A DNA stretch of 53,258 nt from Sporichthyaceae bacterium (GTDB lineage: Bacteria > Actinomycetota > Actinomycetes > Sporichthyales > Sporichthyaceae). The stretch covers positions 1 through 53,258 of the forward strand of contig DASXPS010000110.1 of the NCBI GenBank assembly GCA_036493475.1, in the 5' to 3' direction. Below are positions 45,104-50,156 of the stretch, in pieces; the stretch's first letter is position 1, and the number at the start of each line of letters is the position of its first letter. Both the position numbers and the translations under genes were made by a program. The notes beneath the pieces are model-generated. The model searched no databases. It was not told the origin of the DNA and worked only from the letters and a program-made list of their open reading frames with translations.

Positions 45104-46023
45104 GTCAGCGGCCGGCCGTCGTTGAACGCGACCATGTCGCCCAGCGCGGCGCGCAGGTCGATGGCGCCGCCGCGCTCCACTCCGTCCAATTCGGCCATCG
45201 CGCGGTGCAGGTTGCCGACGAGGCGTTCGGGATCGGTGAGCCCGGGAAACTCGCCGAGGTCGGCCTCTCGGGCGGCCTCCAATGGACTCAACCGGGCCGA
45301 CCGCGCCTGGTTGGCCAGGGAGAGCACGAACCGCACGTAGCGGGCCACTCGGTCGATCACCTCCGGACCGCAGATGGGGCCGTGGCCGGGCACGATCGTC
45401 TCCGCGCCGAACCGGCGCAGGAAGTCCACCGCGTCCAGCATGCCGAACGCCGACCCCATCAGCCAGAACGGCGTCCCGCCGTTGAAGAGCAGGTCGCCGG
45501 CGAACAGCACCCGGCGCTCGGGGATCCACACCACCGCGTCGTTGGTGGTGTGCGCCGCGGTATTCGGGTGGATCACCTCACAGCGCAGGTCGTCCACCCA
45601 GTGGGTGACCTGCTCGGCGAAGGTGAGGAACGGCGGGGCGAGGTCGATGTGCCCCCAGTCCACCTCTGTCCAGAACGGCGCGGAGAACGGAGTGCCCGCC
45701 TCCAGCATCGCGTCGCGGGCGCGGTCCTGGGCGACGATGGTGGCGTCTTCGAACAAGTAGTTGCCGAACGTGTGATCGCCGTGGTGGTGGGTGTTGATCA
45801 GCGTGCGCACCGGCGCCGAGGAGACCCGGCCGATGGCCTCCTGCAGCGCGCGGGTGCGCCGTTCGGTGGCGCAGGCGTCGATCGCGGTGATCCGCCGGCG
45901 ACCGACCAGGAAACCGGTGTTGTTGATCCACCAGGTGCCGTCCGGCTGCACATAGGCGAACACGCCGTCGGCCACCTCGGTGACCGTGCCGAGCGCACCG
46001 CTGTCCTGCCCGTGGCCGGTCAC
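45091..46023 (-). CDS. Metallo-beta-lactamase fold hydrolase
   Basis: The 310-residue protein has the zinc motif THHHGDH (residues 78-84), a following His (HTTND region), GDLLFNGG with the bridging Asp and VPGHGP with the last His. This is the standard MBL-fold hydrolase set; the class resembles quinoprotein-relay or aryl hydrolases rather than true beta-lactamases. The GTG start overlaps the stop of the NTF2-like gene by GTGA, so translation is coupled. It is the last gene of the operon that includes the mini-ORF array. The substrate is unknown. Confidence 0.87.
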   Translation of the reverse strand: MTGHGQDSGALGTVTEVADGVFAYVQPDGTWWINNTGFLVGRRRITAIDACATERRTRALQEAIGRVSSAPVRTLINTHHHGDHTFGNYLFEDATIVAQDRARDAMLEAGTPFSAPFWTEVDWGHIDLAPPFLTFAEQVTHWVDDLRCEVIHPNTAAHTTNDAVVWIPERRVLFAGDLLFNGGTPFWLMGSAFGMLDAVDFLRRFGAETIVPGHGPICGPEVIDRVARYVRFVLSLANQARSARLSPLEAAREADLGEFPGLTDPERLVGNLHRAMAELDGVERGGAIDLRAALGDMVAFNDGRPLTCHA

Positions 46024-46454
46024 TGTGCCTTGCCCAGCAGGGCGAGGTCGACCGTGGCACCCATCCGTTCGGCCACCCGGGCCAGCGACTTCATCGGCCG
46101 GATCATCACCTCGAAGCGGGTGATCAAACCGGCGGTGTCGAAGGCGATCATGTCGATGCCCTTGAGCTCGAGTTCGTCCAGTCGCGCGGAGAACTCCAGC
46201 ACCACGCCGCAGCCGTCATCGGTGGCGAAGCTGCGATGGTAGGTGAAGTCGGTGGCCAAATTCCGCACCGCGGTCTGCAGCACGTGGGCCACCGCCACCG
46301 GGCCGGAATAGGGCTTCCAAAAGGCCGGTGAGGAGAACTCGACGTCCGCAGCCAACAACTCCGCGACGTCGGTCAGGTCGAGCGCGGCGACCATGGCGTG
46401 CCAGCGGGTCAGGGTCGCGGCGGCCGGGGCGGGCAGGGTGCTCAGGTCGCTCAC
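46020..46454 (-). CDS. NTF2/SnoaL-like protein
   Basis: The 144-residue protein fits the SnoaL/NTF2 cone fold: LTRWHAMVAALDLTDVAELLAADVEFSSPAFWKPYSGPVAVAHVL is the usual opening helix and strand. Such proteins bind or turn over small hydrophobic molecules, often polyketide- or steroid-like. No catalytic residue is certain. The GTG at 46454 has no Shine-Dalgarno of its own: its start codon overlaps the stop of the last mini-ORF (GTGA at 46454-46451). Its own stop overlaps the start of the metallo-beta-lactamase gene. Confidence 0.8.
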   Translation of the reverse strand: MSDLSTLPAPAAATLTRWHAMVAALDLTDVAELLAADVEFSSPAFWKPYSGPVAVAHVLQTAVRNLATDFTYHRSFATDDGCGVVLEFSARLDELELKGIDMIAFDTAGLITRFEVMIRPMKSLARVAERMGATVDLALLGKAQ

Positions 46455-46486
46455 TCTGTGCCTATGTTTCGCTCGCTACCGCTCAC
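46451..46486 (-). CDS. Mini-ORF 3 of the coupled array (MSGSERNIGTE)
   Basis: GTG at 46486 overlaps the stop of mini-ORF 2. The product is the same 11-residue peptide. Its TGA at 46453-46451 overlaps the GTG start of the NTF2-like gene at 46454, joining the array to that gene. Confidence 0.5.
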   Translation of the reverse strand: MSGSERNIGTE

Positions 46487-46518
46487 TCTGTGCCTATGTT
46501 TCGCTCGCTACCGCTCAC
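46483..46518 (-). CDS. Mini-ORF 2 of the coupled array (MSGSERNIGTE)
   Basis: GTG at 46518 overlaps the stop of mini-ORF 1. Eleven codons read MSGSERNIGTE before TGA at 46485-46483, which again overlaps the next GTG. No ribosome site lies before it, so it could only be translated by re-initiation. Confidence 0.5.
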   Translation of the reverse strand: MSGSERNIGTE

Positions 46519-46550
46519 ACTGTGCCTATGTTTCGCTCGCTACCGCTCAC
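46515..46550 (-). CDS. Mini-ORF 1 of the coupled array (MSGSERNIGTV)
   Basis: GTG at 46550 is preceded by AGGAGG (46555-46560) with four bases of spacing, a near-perfect ribosome site that overlaps the TAG of the DUF1501 gene. The 11 codons end in TGA at 46517-46515. The next unit's GTG overlaps this stop as GTGA. This is the only mini-ORF with its own ribosome site. Confidence 0.6.
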   Translation of the reverse strand: MSGSERNIGTV

Positions 46551-46558
46551 GAATCCTC

Positions 46559-47806
46559 CTAGCCGGCGCGGGCCACTCCCAGCGGTGCGTACGACAGACC
46601 GGGGAACACCGTGGACAACGAGCCCACGCCCAGGCGTTTGGTCACCACCTCGCCGAGGACATTGAACACGTCGTTGAGACCCTGCACGTCACCGCCGTCC
46701 AGGTCGGCGTCGGAGGCAAGCGGCACCCACGTGCCGTGCACCTTGTTCCCGATGAGGCCACCGCCGAGTAGCCAGACCAGCCCGCCGTGGCCGTGGTCGG
46801 TACCACCGGAGGCGTTCATCGCGACGCGGCGGCCGAACTCGGACTGCACGATCACGGTGACCCGGGATCGCCGCGCCGGGCCGAGGTCGGTGAAGAACGC
46901 GGCGAGCGCCTGCGCCGTGTTGGCCAGCAGCGCGTCCAGCCCGAGCGCCTCGCTGGTGTGGGTGTCCCAACTGCTCACGTCCAGGGTGGCCACCTGCAGG
47001 CCGACCTCGGCGCGCAGGATCGCGACCAGGTCCTTCAGCGCGGCGGCGGTGGGGCCGTCCGGGTACACCGCGGCGTTCTGCACCGTGGTGAGGGACCGAA
47101 TCACCTCCGCGGTGGCGACCGCGGACAACGCCTCGGGCACGTCGGAGCTCAACGGTCCGTCGAACCCGCGGTAGAGCGTGCCGAGCGCGGTCATGGCCGG
47201 GCCGCGGGACGCGCCGGCGCCCGGGAAGTCGAACGTCGCCAGCGAGGACATGGAGATCTTGGGCTGATTGCCCGCCATGGACATCGGGAGGGCGAAGCCG
47301 TCGGCGAGCCCACGGAATGTGGTGCCCGGACCGAGGCGGGCGAGAACCCGGTCCAGCCATCCGGTGCTCACCGAGCTCGACCCGCCCTGCTCGACGAACT
47401 GCTGTGCCTGGAAGTGACTGCGCGTCACTCCTTTGTTGCTCGACGCCGGGACGAAGGTCATCTCCCCGGTCGACCAGAGCACCTGGTGCAGCGGCGCCAT
47501 GGCCGGGTGCAACGCCCAACCGCCGGTACCGTCCAGGGCGATCGCGTTGTTCGGCACCAGCGCCGGGCGCGCGATACGCAGGTAGTTCACGCCGAGGTCG
47601 GCCGAGTGCGGGGACAAGATGCGCAGCCCATCGGCGCCACCCCGCAGGAAGATCACGATCACCGTGTTCGGGTTCGACGCCGGCGCGCCGTAGGCGACCC
47701 GGGTGGTGACCACCTGCGAACCGACGACCGAGACGCCGAGGGCACCGACGCCGGCCAGGAAACGGCGCCGGGTCAACCCGGCGGGGTTCTGCTCACCGCA
47801 TCGCAT
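46559..47806 (-). CDS. DUF1501 domain protein with Tat signal
   Basis: The 415-residue protein begins with a twin-arginine signal (LTRRRFLAGVGALG, residues about 11-24) and shows the DUF1501 features FLRGGADGL, the SHFQAQQF region, DTH in SSWDTHTSE, QSEFGRR and TDHGHGG. DUF1501 proteins are exported, sulfatase-like-fold proteins of unknown role that usually pair with DUF1800 proteins, as here: the two genes overlap by 14 bases. Its TAG stop overlaps the AGGAGG that serves the mini-ORF array. The substrate is unknown. Confidence 0.9.
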   Translation of the reverse strand: MRCGEQNPAGLTRRRFLAGVGALGVSVVGSQVVTTRVAYGAPASNPNTVIVIFLRGGADGLRILSPHSADLGVNYLRIARPALVPNNAIALDGTGGWALHPAMAPLHQVLWSTGEMTFVPASSNKGVTRSHFQAQQFVEQGGSSSVSTGWLDRVLARLGPGTTFRGLADGFALPMSMAGNQPKISMSSLATFDFPGAGASRGPAMTALGTLYRGFDGPLSSDVPEALSAVATAEVIRSLTTVQNAAVYPDGPTAAALKDLVAILRAEVGLQVATLDVSSWDTHTSEALGLDALLANTAQALAAFFTDLGPARRSRVTVIVQSEFGRRVAMNASGGTDHGHGGLVWLLGGGLIGNKVHGTWVPLASDADLDGGDVQGLNDVFNVLGEVVTKRLGVGSLSTVFPGLSYAPLGVARAG

Positions 47807-49268
47807 GTGAGGGTCCGTCCAGGATGAGGGCGATCAACGAGGGCAGCAGCCCGTGCAGGGTTGACTTGGCCACCGGGGTGGTGGCGGCCTCGCCGAGGAA
47901 GGTCTGCAGCGCCTGAACATGCGCCACGGGCAGCGGAGCACCGGTCAGCCGAACCCCGAGCCGGGCGATGGCGTCGCCACTGTTGGCCGGGGTCCCGCCG
48001 TAGAGCGTGGCCTTGTTGGACTTGGCGAACGCATTGGGCCACGAGTCCGCGGACAGCGCGAGGTGGTGCAGCCAGAGCGTGAGCAGCGTGCTGGCCGAAC
48101 GCCAGGCGGCGGCCACATCGGGATAGCCGTTGGGCGGGTCCCAGGCCAGCGGCACGTTGCCGACCTGCTGGGTCATGACCTGCAGGTACTTCAGCGCGGC
48201 GGTGATTGTGGCCGGCCTGGTGTCCAGGATGCGCAACGTGGCCACGATGTTCTCCGCGGGTCGGCGCACCTTCTGCCCCCGCGAGGCCCAGAACTCCGTC
48301 GAGCGCAGGATCGTGTCCAGCATCGGCAGGATCTGCGTGCCGGAGCCGGTGTAGGCCTTGGCCACCGCGCCCACCAGGGCGTCGGAGGGGTGGTCGGACA
48401 CGAGCCGGATGCACAGCTTGTGGGCCAGCCGAGTGGCCGTCGCGGGGTGTGCGGCCAGGTAGCGCAGCAGGGCGTCGCCGCCGGCCTCGCCGTCCGCCGT
48501 CGAGGAATTGGGATGGCGGAAGCCGAGCACCCGGACCGCGCCGGTGCCGTGGATCGCCGGGTTGTAGGTGTAATCCAGGGTCCGGGAATCCACGGTGCGC
48601 CCGGTGAGCAGCTTGGCCGTGTTCTTCACGTCGGACTCGGAATACACCAACCCGACGGTGTGCAGCTCGAGCAGTTCCCGGGCGTAGTTCTCGTTGACCG
48701 CGGCCTTGCTGGACTGCGCCAGGTTCAGGTACAGCAGCATCGCGGCGTTGCGCGCCGAGGCCACCAGCATGTCGGTGAATGAACCCAGGGCGTGCTTGCG
48801 GATGACGTCGCGGTCGAAGGTGTGCCGGGTGACCCACAGGTCCGCGCGCGGGCAAACGACGTTGAGGTGGTTGGCGAAGAAGTCGACCAGGACCTCATAG
48901 AGCTGGGCGCTGCTCCAGACCTGCAGCCCCAGCGTGACCTGGGTGAGCTGGGTCATCAGGTCCCAGCCGTAGGAGTTGCCACGCAGCTTGAGGAAGGTAT
49001 GCGCATCGGCGGGGCTGGTGCCCAACAGTGTGGCCTGCGTGGAGACCAGGGTGTCGCCGGCGTATCCGGCGTAGGTGTGGCCCGCGGCGATCTGCGCGGC
49101 GATCCAGGCCGGGATCCCGCGCTCGGCGATCTCCGCCCGCGCCGCCGCCGTCGGGCCGAAGGCGAGCCGGGACAGCACGTGGTCCGTGGGATTCGGAGTC
49201 AGCGGCGCCTTCGCCGTTGTGGCGCTCTTCGCGATCGCCTCGGCGATCGTCGGATAGATCGTGGTCAA
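47793..49268 (-). CDS. DUF1800 family protein
   Basis: The 491-residue protein has the DUF1800 features DHVLSRLAFGPTAAARAEI, LVDFFANHLNV, NYARELLELHTVG and LTGRTVD. DUF1800 proteins occur next to DUF1501 proteins and are thought to act with them; the activity is not known. A TTG at 49268 is chosen for AGGGAG upstream. No signal peptide is apparent, although the partner has a Tat signal, so co-export in complex with it is possible. The purU stop is 24 bases upstream, so it may be part of a longer operon. Confidence 0.9.
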   Translation of the reverse strand: MTTIYPTIAEAIAKSATTAKAPLTPNPTDHVLSRLAFGPTAAARAEIAERGIPAWIAAQIAAGHTYAGYAGDTLVSTQATLLGTSPADAHTFLKLRGNSYGWDLMTQLTQVTLGLQVWSSAQLYEVLVDFFANHLNVVCPRADLWVTRHTFDRDVIRKHALGSFTDMLVASARNAAMLLYLNLAQSSKAAVNENYARELLELHTVGLVYSESDVKNTAKLLTGRTVDSRTLDYTYNPAIHGTGAVRVLGFRHPNSSTADGEAGGDALLRYLAAHPATATRLAHKLCIRLVSDHPSDALVGAVAKAYTGSGTQILPMLDTILRSTEFWASRGQKVRRPAENIVATLRILDTRPATITAALKYLQVMTQQVGNVPLAWDPPNGYPDVAAAWRSASTLLTLWLHHLALSADSWPNAFAKSNKATLYGGTPANSGDAIARLGVRLTGAPLPVAHVQALQTFLGEAATTPVAKSTLHGLLPSLIALILDGPSHAMR

Positions 49269-49292: not shown

Positions 49293-50156
49293 TCAGTGAA
49301 AGACCACCGTTCGGTTGCCGTGCACCAGCACCCGGTCCTCCAGGTGCGCGCGCAAGCCACGGGCCAGCACAATCTTCTCGATGTCCCGACCCTTTCGCAC
49401 CATGTCCGCCACGGTGTCCGAATGGTCGACCCGAATGACATCTTGTTCGACGATGGGGCCCGCGTCCAGGTTTTCGGTCACGTAATGGCACGTCGCACCG
49501 ACGAGCTTTACCCCGCGCGTATGTGCTTGGTGGTAAGGCTTTGCGCCGATAAAGCTCGGCAGAAAACTGTGGTGAATGTTGAGCATCCGCCCGGACCAGG
49601 CCTCGCACAGATCCGGTGGCACAATCTGCATAAATCGGGCCAAAACGATCGCGTCCGGCTCCTCGGCGTCGACCAGTTTGCGCACCTCGTCGAACGCCGC
49701 CCGCTTGCCCTGCGCGCCGGGCGCGAACGGCACGTGATGGAACGGGATGGAGTGCGCCCGGGTGATCGCCTCCAGACCGGTGTGGTTACCGATCACCGCA
49801 CGCACGTCCATGTCGAGTTCGCCACCCGCGTGCCTGCCGAGCAGGTCGTAGAGGCAGTGCACCTCCTTGGACACCAGCATGACCACCCGCGGCGGTCGAC
49901 CGGTGTCGGAGACCCGCCAGGTGGTGTCCGCACCGAACTCCGCAGCCACCGCGGCGAAGCGCTCGCGCAGTTCGTCCAACCCCCACGGCAACGTGTCGGC
50001 CTGCACCACCTGGCGGGTGAAGAACCAGTTGGACTGCGGGTCCAGGTGGTAGCCGGCCTCGGTGATCGATCCACCCGCCTCGGACAGGAACGTGGCGATG
50101 CGCGCCACGATGCCGGTGCGGTCGGGACAGCCGAGGGTAAGCACGTAATGCGACAT
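49293..50156 (-). CDS. purU: Formyltetrahydrofolate deformylase
   Basis: The 287-residue enzyme hydrolyses 10-formyl-THF to formate and THF, balancing one-carbon pools. An N-terminal ACT domain (about 4-85, VLTLGCPDRTGIVARIATFL) precedes the formyltransferase-type catalytic domain with NIHHSFLPSFIGAKPY and the Asp in LDAGPIVEQDV. The length is normal. The MaoC-like gene ends six bases upstream and DUF1800 follows after 24 bases, so the three probably share a transcript. The functional link is not obvious. Confidence 0.95.
   Translation of the reverse strand: MSHYVLTLGCPDRTGIVARIATFLSEAGGSITEAGYHLDPQSNWFFTRQVVQADTLPWGLDELRERFAAVAAEFGADTTWRVSDTGRPPRVVMLVSKEVHCLYDLLGRHAGGELDMDVRAVIGNHTGLEAITRAHSIPFHHVPFAPGAQGKRAAFDEVRKLVDAEEPDAIVLARFMQIVPPDLCEAWSGRMLNIHHSFLPSFIGAKPYHQAHTRGVKLVGATCHYVTENLDAGPIVEQDVIRVDHSDTVADMVRKGRDIEKIVLARGLRAHLEDRVLVHGNRTVVFH

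Follow-up and report, generated by a model that had tools for sequence, protein, structure and literature searches.

Introduction

Among the small repeats known from bacterial gene starts, the closest described system is that of the mycobacterial interspersed repetitive units (MIRUs), which are apparently mobile, insert at start codons, carry an internal ORF coupled at -4 nt and are likely to have minimal impact on genes (PMC12548453, summarising Supply et al., 1997). In M. tuberculosis, the MIRU units at senX3-regX3 measure 77 bp, and MIRUs as a whole are found only in M. leprae and in the M. tuberculosis complex (PMC4213456). Small ORFs linked by RTGA to the following gene are also enriched in M. 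tuberculosis, and ribosome delivery has been proposed for them (PMC4633059). In addition, the enterobacterial RU-1/2/3 repeats are presented as small mobile intergenic repeats that contain ORFs and are MITE-like (PMC2759123).

Herein, an array of three 32-bp repeats at a gene start of a Sporichthyaceae bacterium is compared with these systems; the window is the whole stretch of 53,258 nucleotides analysed. The family to which the array is assigned below resembles MIRUs in consisting of many dispersed copies of roughly 50-100 bp (here mostly 77 or 80 bp, against the 77-bp type of MIRU), in having an internal mini-ORF that overlaps each neighbour by 4 nt, including all three units of the window, in its apparent insertion at start-codon DTGA sites with duplication, and in its tandem copies. 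Unlike MIRUs, which are confined to mycobacteria in the literature found, it occurs in a Sporichthyaceae host and in about a tenth of the sampled genomes of the class, and its copy in the window is a minimal unit of just 32 bp, placed at a start without a prior stop/start overlap. The RTGA-coupled small ORFs share the overlap of TGA with the next RTG, the possible delivery of ribosomes and a peptide that is free while the linkage is kept, but they are single, unrelated, studied on leaderless transcripts and form no repeat family (PMC4633059). The family also differs from RU-1/2/3 in lacking terminal inverted repeats and in targeting the NTGA start/stop overlap. Literature searches for MSERSER or similar actinobacterial repeats returned nothing relevant, and the family outside mycobacteria is not reported in the literature searched, the coverage of which was incomplete. 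We would call the family MIRU-like without filing it as MIRU, since the likeness drawn here is one of position rule and description.

The array at the start of the SnoaL-like gene

Read on the minus strand, AGGAGG is followed by ATTC, three 32-bp units GTGAGCGGTAGCGAGCGAAACATAGGCACAG(T/A/A) and the downstream gene; the sequence reads ...GCTAGGAGGATTC on the 5' side of the units and GTGAGCGACCTG, the start of the SnoaL_2/NTF2-like gene, on their 3' side. The Shine-Dalgarno motif AGGAGG (46555-46560) lies 4 nt before the first GTG and overlaps the TAG of the upstream DUF1501 gene (46559-47806, minus strand; Pfam PF07394, E 9e-30), a stop that is not part of a stop/start overlap. The three units together span 46455-46550 (minus strand), where TRF reports period 32, 3.2 copies, 98% matches and a score of 199, above that of every other array in the window. 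Each unit consists of GTG, 10 codons and TGA, giving the peptide (M)SGSERNIGT(V/E/E) and a stop. Unit 1 (46519-46550) corresponds to mini-ORF 1 (46515-46550, MSGSERNIGTV), which ends GTG TGA; unit 2 (46487-46518) and unit 3 (46455-46486) correspond to mini-ORFs 2 (46483-46518) and 3 (46451-46486), both MSGSERNIGTE and ending GAG TGA. The TGA of every unit overlaps the GTG of the next, and the last overlaps, in the GTGA at 46451-46454, the GTG of the SnoaL-like gene (46020-46454, minus strand; 144 aa; Pfam PF12680, E 1.2e-8), which itself starts with GTGAGCG. Ahead of each internal GTG, just a weak AGG is found. The best actinobacterial named match of the SnoaL-like protein comes from a Sporichthya MAG (64% identity). 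Sequence, TRF and translation confirm the chain of three mini-ORF units, coupled by GTGA overlaps into the NTF2-like gene, that the preliminary description had reported.

That description had also raised the possibility of a dispersed repeat and proposed a genome search for the 32-mer. No further copy of the exact 32-mer, with up to 3 mismatches, was found elsewhere in the 4.27-Mb genome; its sole site is a coupled start, and the unit itself, being unique to the array site, derives locally from a longer element and is no dispersed repeat. The picture is less simple in that the core GAGCGGTAGCGA is also present at six more intergenic places with no forward-sense coupled start and partly in reverse orientation (G000:C31:32003, G000:C31:32036, C48:203, C214:18187, C19:92896 and C17:45835), the two on C31 forming a close pair with 33 bp spacing. 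These places are possibly a related repeat of different behaviour, and with a 32-mer unique here and a core found at uncoupled sites, the short form could have a history separate from that of the family.

Membership of the array in an interspersed family

Looser searches of the same genome revealed relatives of the 32-mer at other gene junctions. The usual copy of this family has 77-80 bp and reads NTGAGCGAGCGCAGCGAGCGAATCAATAGGCACAG...CGAGG...NTGA, and the longer element of ~80 bp to which these relatives led reads NTGAGCGAGCGCAGCGAGC...CACAG...GAGG...CGNTGA. For instance, copy L009, ATGAACGAGCGCAGCGAGCGAATCATGGGCACGGCATGA, holds a mini-ORF, MNERSERIMGTA with its stop, that joins two genes via ATGA overlaps. 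The 32-mer aligns with the 5' part of the family with one 3-base and one 1-base gap (GTGAGCG---GTAGCGAGCGAAAC-ATAGGCACAG), a score that 0 of 20,000 dinucleotide shuffles reached. Among 4,996 36-mers starting with NTGA (~330 kb of the genome), the three units score 22-24 (unit 2 scores 22 against the 5' consensus, the top non-family site 15), and the sole other site above 15 is a true family copy. Furthermore, the independent model R2, made from 31 family copies with the window array left out, ranks the array first in the window, matching unit 1 from model position 2 (E 6e-4) and unit 3 with E 0.0085. By these comparisons, the 32-mer is a shortened, tandemly duplicated member of the interspersed family. 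Other short derivatives in the genome are still coupled, such as a double unit of 21 codons at C155:23966 and a 9-codon VSERSEVCR at C82:15124, the latter apparently the result of an internal deletion.

Model searches, together with stretches taken with their flanks, served to map the family. With R1, a sequence-only model built from 12 copies, 34 places were found at E about 1e-3 or better in the host genome; of the 394 genomes sampled from the class, 40 (about 10%) gave matches. A phylum-wide search with R2 gave matches in 12 of 396 genomes, those outside the class being weak (E 1e-7 to 1e-3). Plasmid and phage collections searched with three family sequences yielded no match, and the window stretch yielded one chance-level match (E 0.4) in the plasmid collection. 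Joint analysis was carried out on 168 places with flanks from 33 genomes, in which the two N positions are 17 to 107 bp apart, most commonly 77 and 80. An element form of 104-107 bp (35-36 codons) that keeps the relay frame is present at G086:C44:195930, G299:C1:372355 and G299:C23:52742. Whole elements also occur as exact or near-exact, mostly identical tandem copies at six other places, so tandem growth by NTGA-to-NTGA units seems to be a habit of the family.

Two further groups of places were observed. The junction before ilvN carries a family element, with different sequences, in six genomes of several genera (G175:C3:8996, G202:C1:1409615, G019:C29:26309, G215:C8:759228, G160:C1:1505013 and G334:C2:512283), and may be a hot spot or an old shared insertion. 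At G000:C19:94673 (L126), G000:C49:10533 (L132) and G004:C277:14051 (L183), the element is read in frame into the downstream protein as an MSERSE... N-terminal extension; these may be inserts turning into protein parts.

Position rule and coupling

The left TGA is present in 164 of the 168 places, and in 121 of these 164 copies an upstream ORF of 80 codons or more ends at it. Of the 157 mini-ORFs with no more than 60 codons, 154 stop at TGA. In 139 the stop lies in an [AGT]TGA that opens a downstream ORF of 80 codons or more, and in 6 others it opens the next tandem copy, compared with 11/118 and 21/125 in the other two frames. Because the model itself contains the right NTGA, the count was repeated on matches whose scored part stops short of it, and the rule still holds (87/93). 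An SD-like motif lies within -14 to -4 of the right start in 114 of 154 cases, against a background of about 10%, and the downstream gene may thus be started by re-initiation, by SD or by both. Transposition of MIRUs into DTGA sites of translationally coupled operons was reportedly proposed in the abstract of Supply et al. in 1997; that target rule is the same as the position rule found for the family here.

Probable site duplication and empty orthologous sites

The left and the right NTGA share the same N in 113 of 139 copies, whereas permuting the right ends within genomes gives 97.8 (p 5e-5, with the shared ancestry of copies ignored); in the host genome alone, the two agree in 27 of 30 copies versus 16.9 expected. 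With 17 downstream proteins of the host genome, orthologous junctions were located in the relatives G001 and G003. At about ten of them, one or both relatives have no element and just one NTGA. In the cleanest case (C165:26820), G001 has ...ctggagagggtcacgcgATGAgcgtc where the host has ...ctggagagggcgacccgATGA...cagcgATGAgcgtc, with the element between two ATGA; the empty junction in G001 reads ...acgcgATGAgcgtc. At three junctions (C116, C59 and C82), G001 bears a different element at the same junction. Regarding the window, the SnoaL-like ortholog in the same-genus G001 is 77% identical and has SD-GTGAGC without the repeats, reading ...GGAGGacgaGTGAGCGCACTG; the upstream gene there is purU, not DUF1501, and this empty site is not perfectly syntenic. 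In G002 and G003, the SnoaL-like gene has a direct GTGA overlap. The family data fit an element that enters NTGA sites at translation starts and duplicates them.

As for the local gene order, the DUF1501 and DUF1800 genes (window 46559-49268) lie between purU (49293-50156) and the SnoaL-like gene. Because the SnoaL-like gene of G001 comes immediately after a purU-like gene, the pair was either gained in the host or lost in G001.

Terminal inverted repeats are absent in the 80-bp elements, in which the inverse similarity of the terminal 20-mers is 3.66 versus 3.80 in shuffled sequences; in this respect the elements differ from MITEs. No transposase was identified. Both points count against a mobile element.

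Origin of the array and alternative explanations

The array probably goes back to a MIRU-like interspersed element, non-autonomous and inserting at the NTGA of translation starts, of which it is a truncated copy duplicated in tandem. This reading draws on family membership, the position rule, frame keeping, the matching N at both ends and the empty orthologous sites, all of them read from the sequences. An actively transposing element would land on a start-codon NTGA, usually one that already overlaps a stop, and would duplicate it; its mini-ORF, running from the left NTG to a TGA that overlaps the downstream NTG, would link both NTGA copies. A ribosome from the upstream gene could then stop and restart at each NTGA and be handed to the downstream gene, so that the element would settle inside operons with little polar effect and a near-neutral outcome. 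In the window, the element would have entered at the GTGA with which the SnoaL-like gene begins, been reduced to a 32-bp NTGA-to-NTGA unit and been duplicated in tandem to three copies by slippage or recombination; ribosomes would load at AGGAGG and then pass three restarts. The earlier proposal of insertion or expansion exactly at a start codon with coupling kept is supported, as family copies nearly always bridge a stop/start NTGA and the corresponding sites in relatives are empty, with just one NTGA. The suggestion of a repeat family spreading by GTGA coupling fares better than the relay or tuning device offered beside it, and the overall interpretation is partly supported.

A different origin would be a local minisatellite, with a unit taken from host sequence by replication slippage, unrelated to the interspersed element, and with coupling as a by-product of one GTGA per unit. 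Three near-identical copies, a 32-mer unique in the genome and the GTGAGCG at the downstream gene start would suit it, but it is quite unlikely, given that all units align with the family 5' part well above the other sampled non-family NTGA sites (at most 15) and the shuffles, that an independent model puts the array first in the window, and that G001 has no such unit though its gene also starts with GTGAGC. The repeat could also serve as an adaptive expression device, a VNTR whose copy number tunes translation of the SnoaL-like gene. The start-stop logic is preserved in the unit, the family has tandem units at other places too, and the array RNA is less structured than shuffles (z +1.9). We nevertheless regard tuning as unlikely: a 32-bp step keeps the coupling, so gain or loss of a unit changes the number of restarts and provides no off-switch, and the same-genus relative G001 lacks the array.

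Selection on the product itself, as in a conserved family of leader peptides or small proteins, would account for the MSERSER-type N-terminus that recurs in many genomes. However, the frame in which the same DNA is read differs between sub-families (MSERSELIN... versus MSELASSSM...) while both ends stay coupled, which is why coupling rather than the peptide appears to be preserved; with mini-ORFs of 7 to 36 codons and C-termini that differ between genera, a regulatory peptide is highly improbable. A structured RNA or attenuator in the operon is barely credible: long elements have, on average, a little more structure than shuffles (mean z -1.2), yet the window array tends the opposite way, no terminator or promoter-like site was found at it, and covariation across the family is almost nil.

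Implications

Compared with the MIRUs, the mechanism of the truncated MIRU-like element is a familiar one; what appears to be new is the occurrence beyond mycobacteria and the minimal relay unit of 32 bp. MIRUs might even be one branch of a class-wide set of tiny non-autonomous actinobacterial elements that target start/stop overlaps, bring along a relay ORF and in many cases a Shine-Dalgarno motif, owe their mobility to some enzyme and can shrink to 32-bp relay units multiplying as VNTRs, a tentative view that we would place somewhat short of probable.

Altogether, the family illustrates how a selfish repeat can spread in dense operons without breaking them, as the mini-gene of each copy would keep the ribosome hand-over, and what had been described for mycobacteria is now seen across a broad range of actinobacteria. 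The many natural insertions, including those before ilvN in six genomes, can be used for re-initiation tests. Furthermore, the findings suggest that many annotated actinobacterial small ORFs and N-terminal extensions beginning with MSERSER are parts of such inserts.
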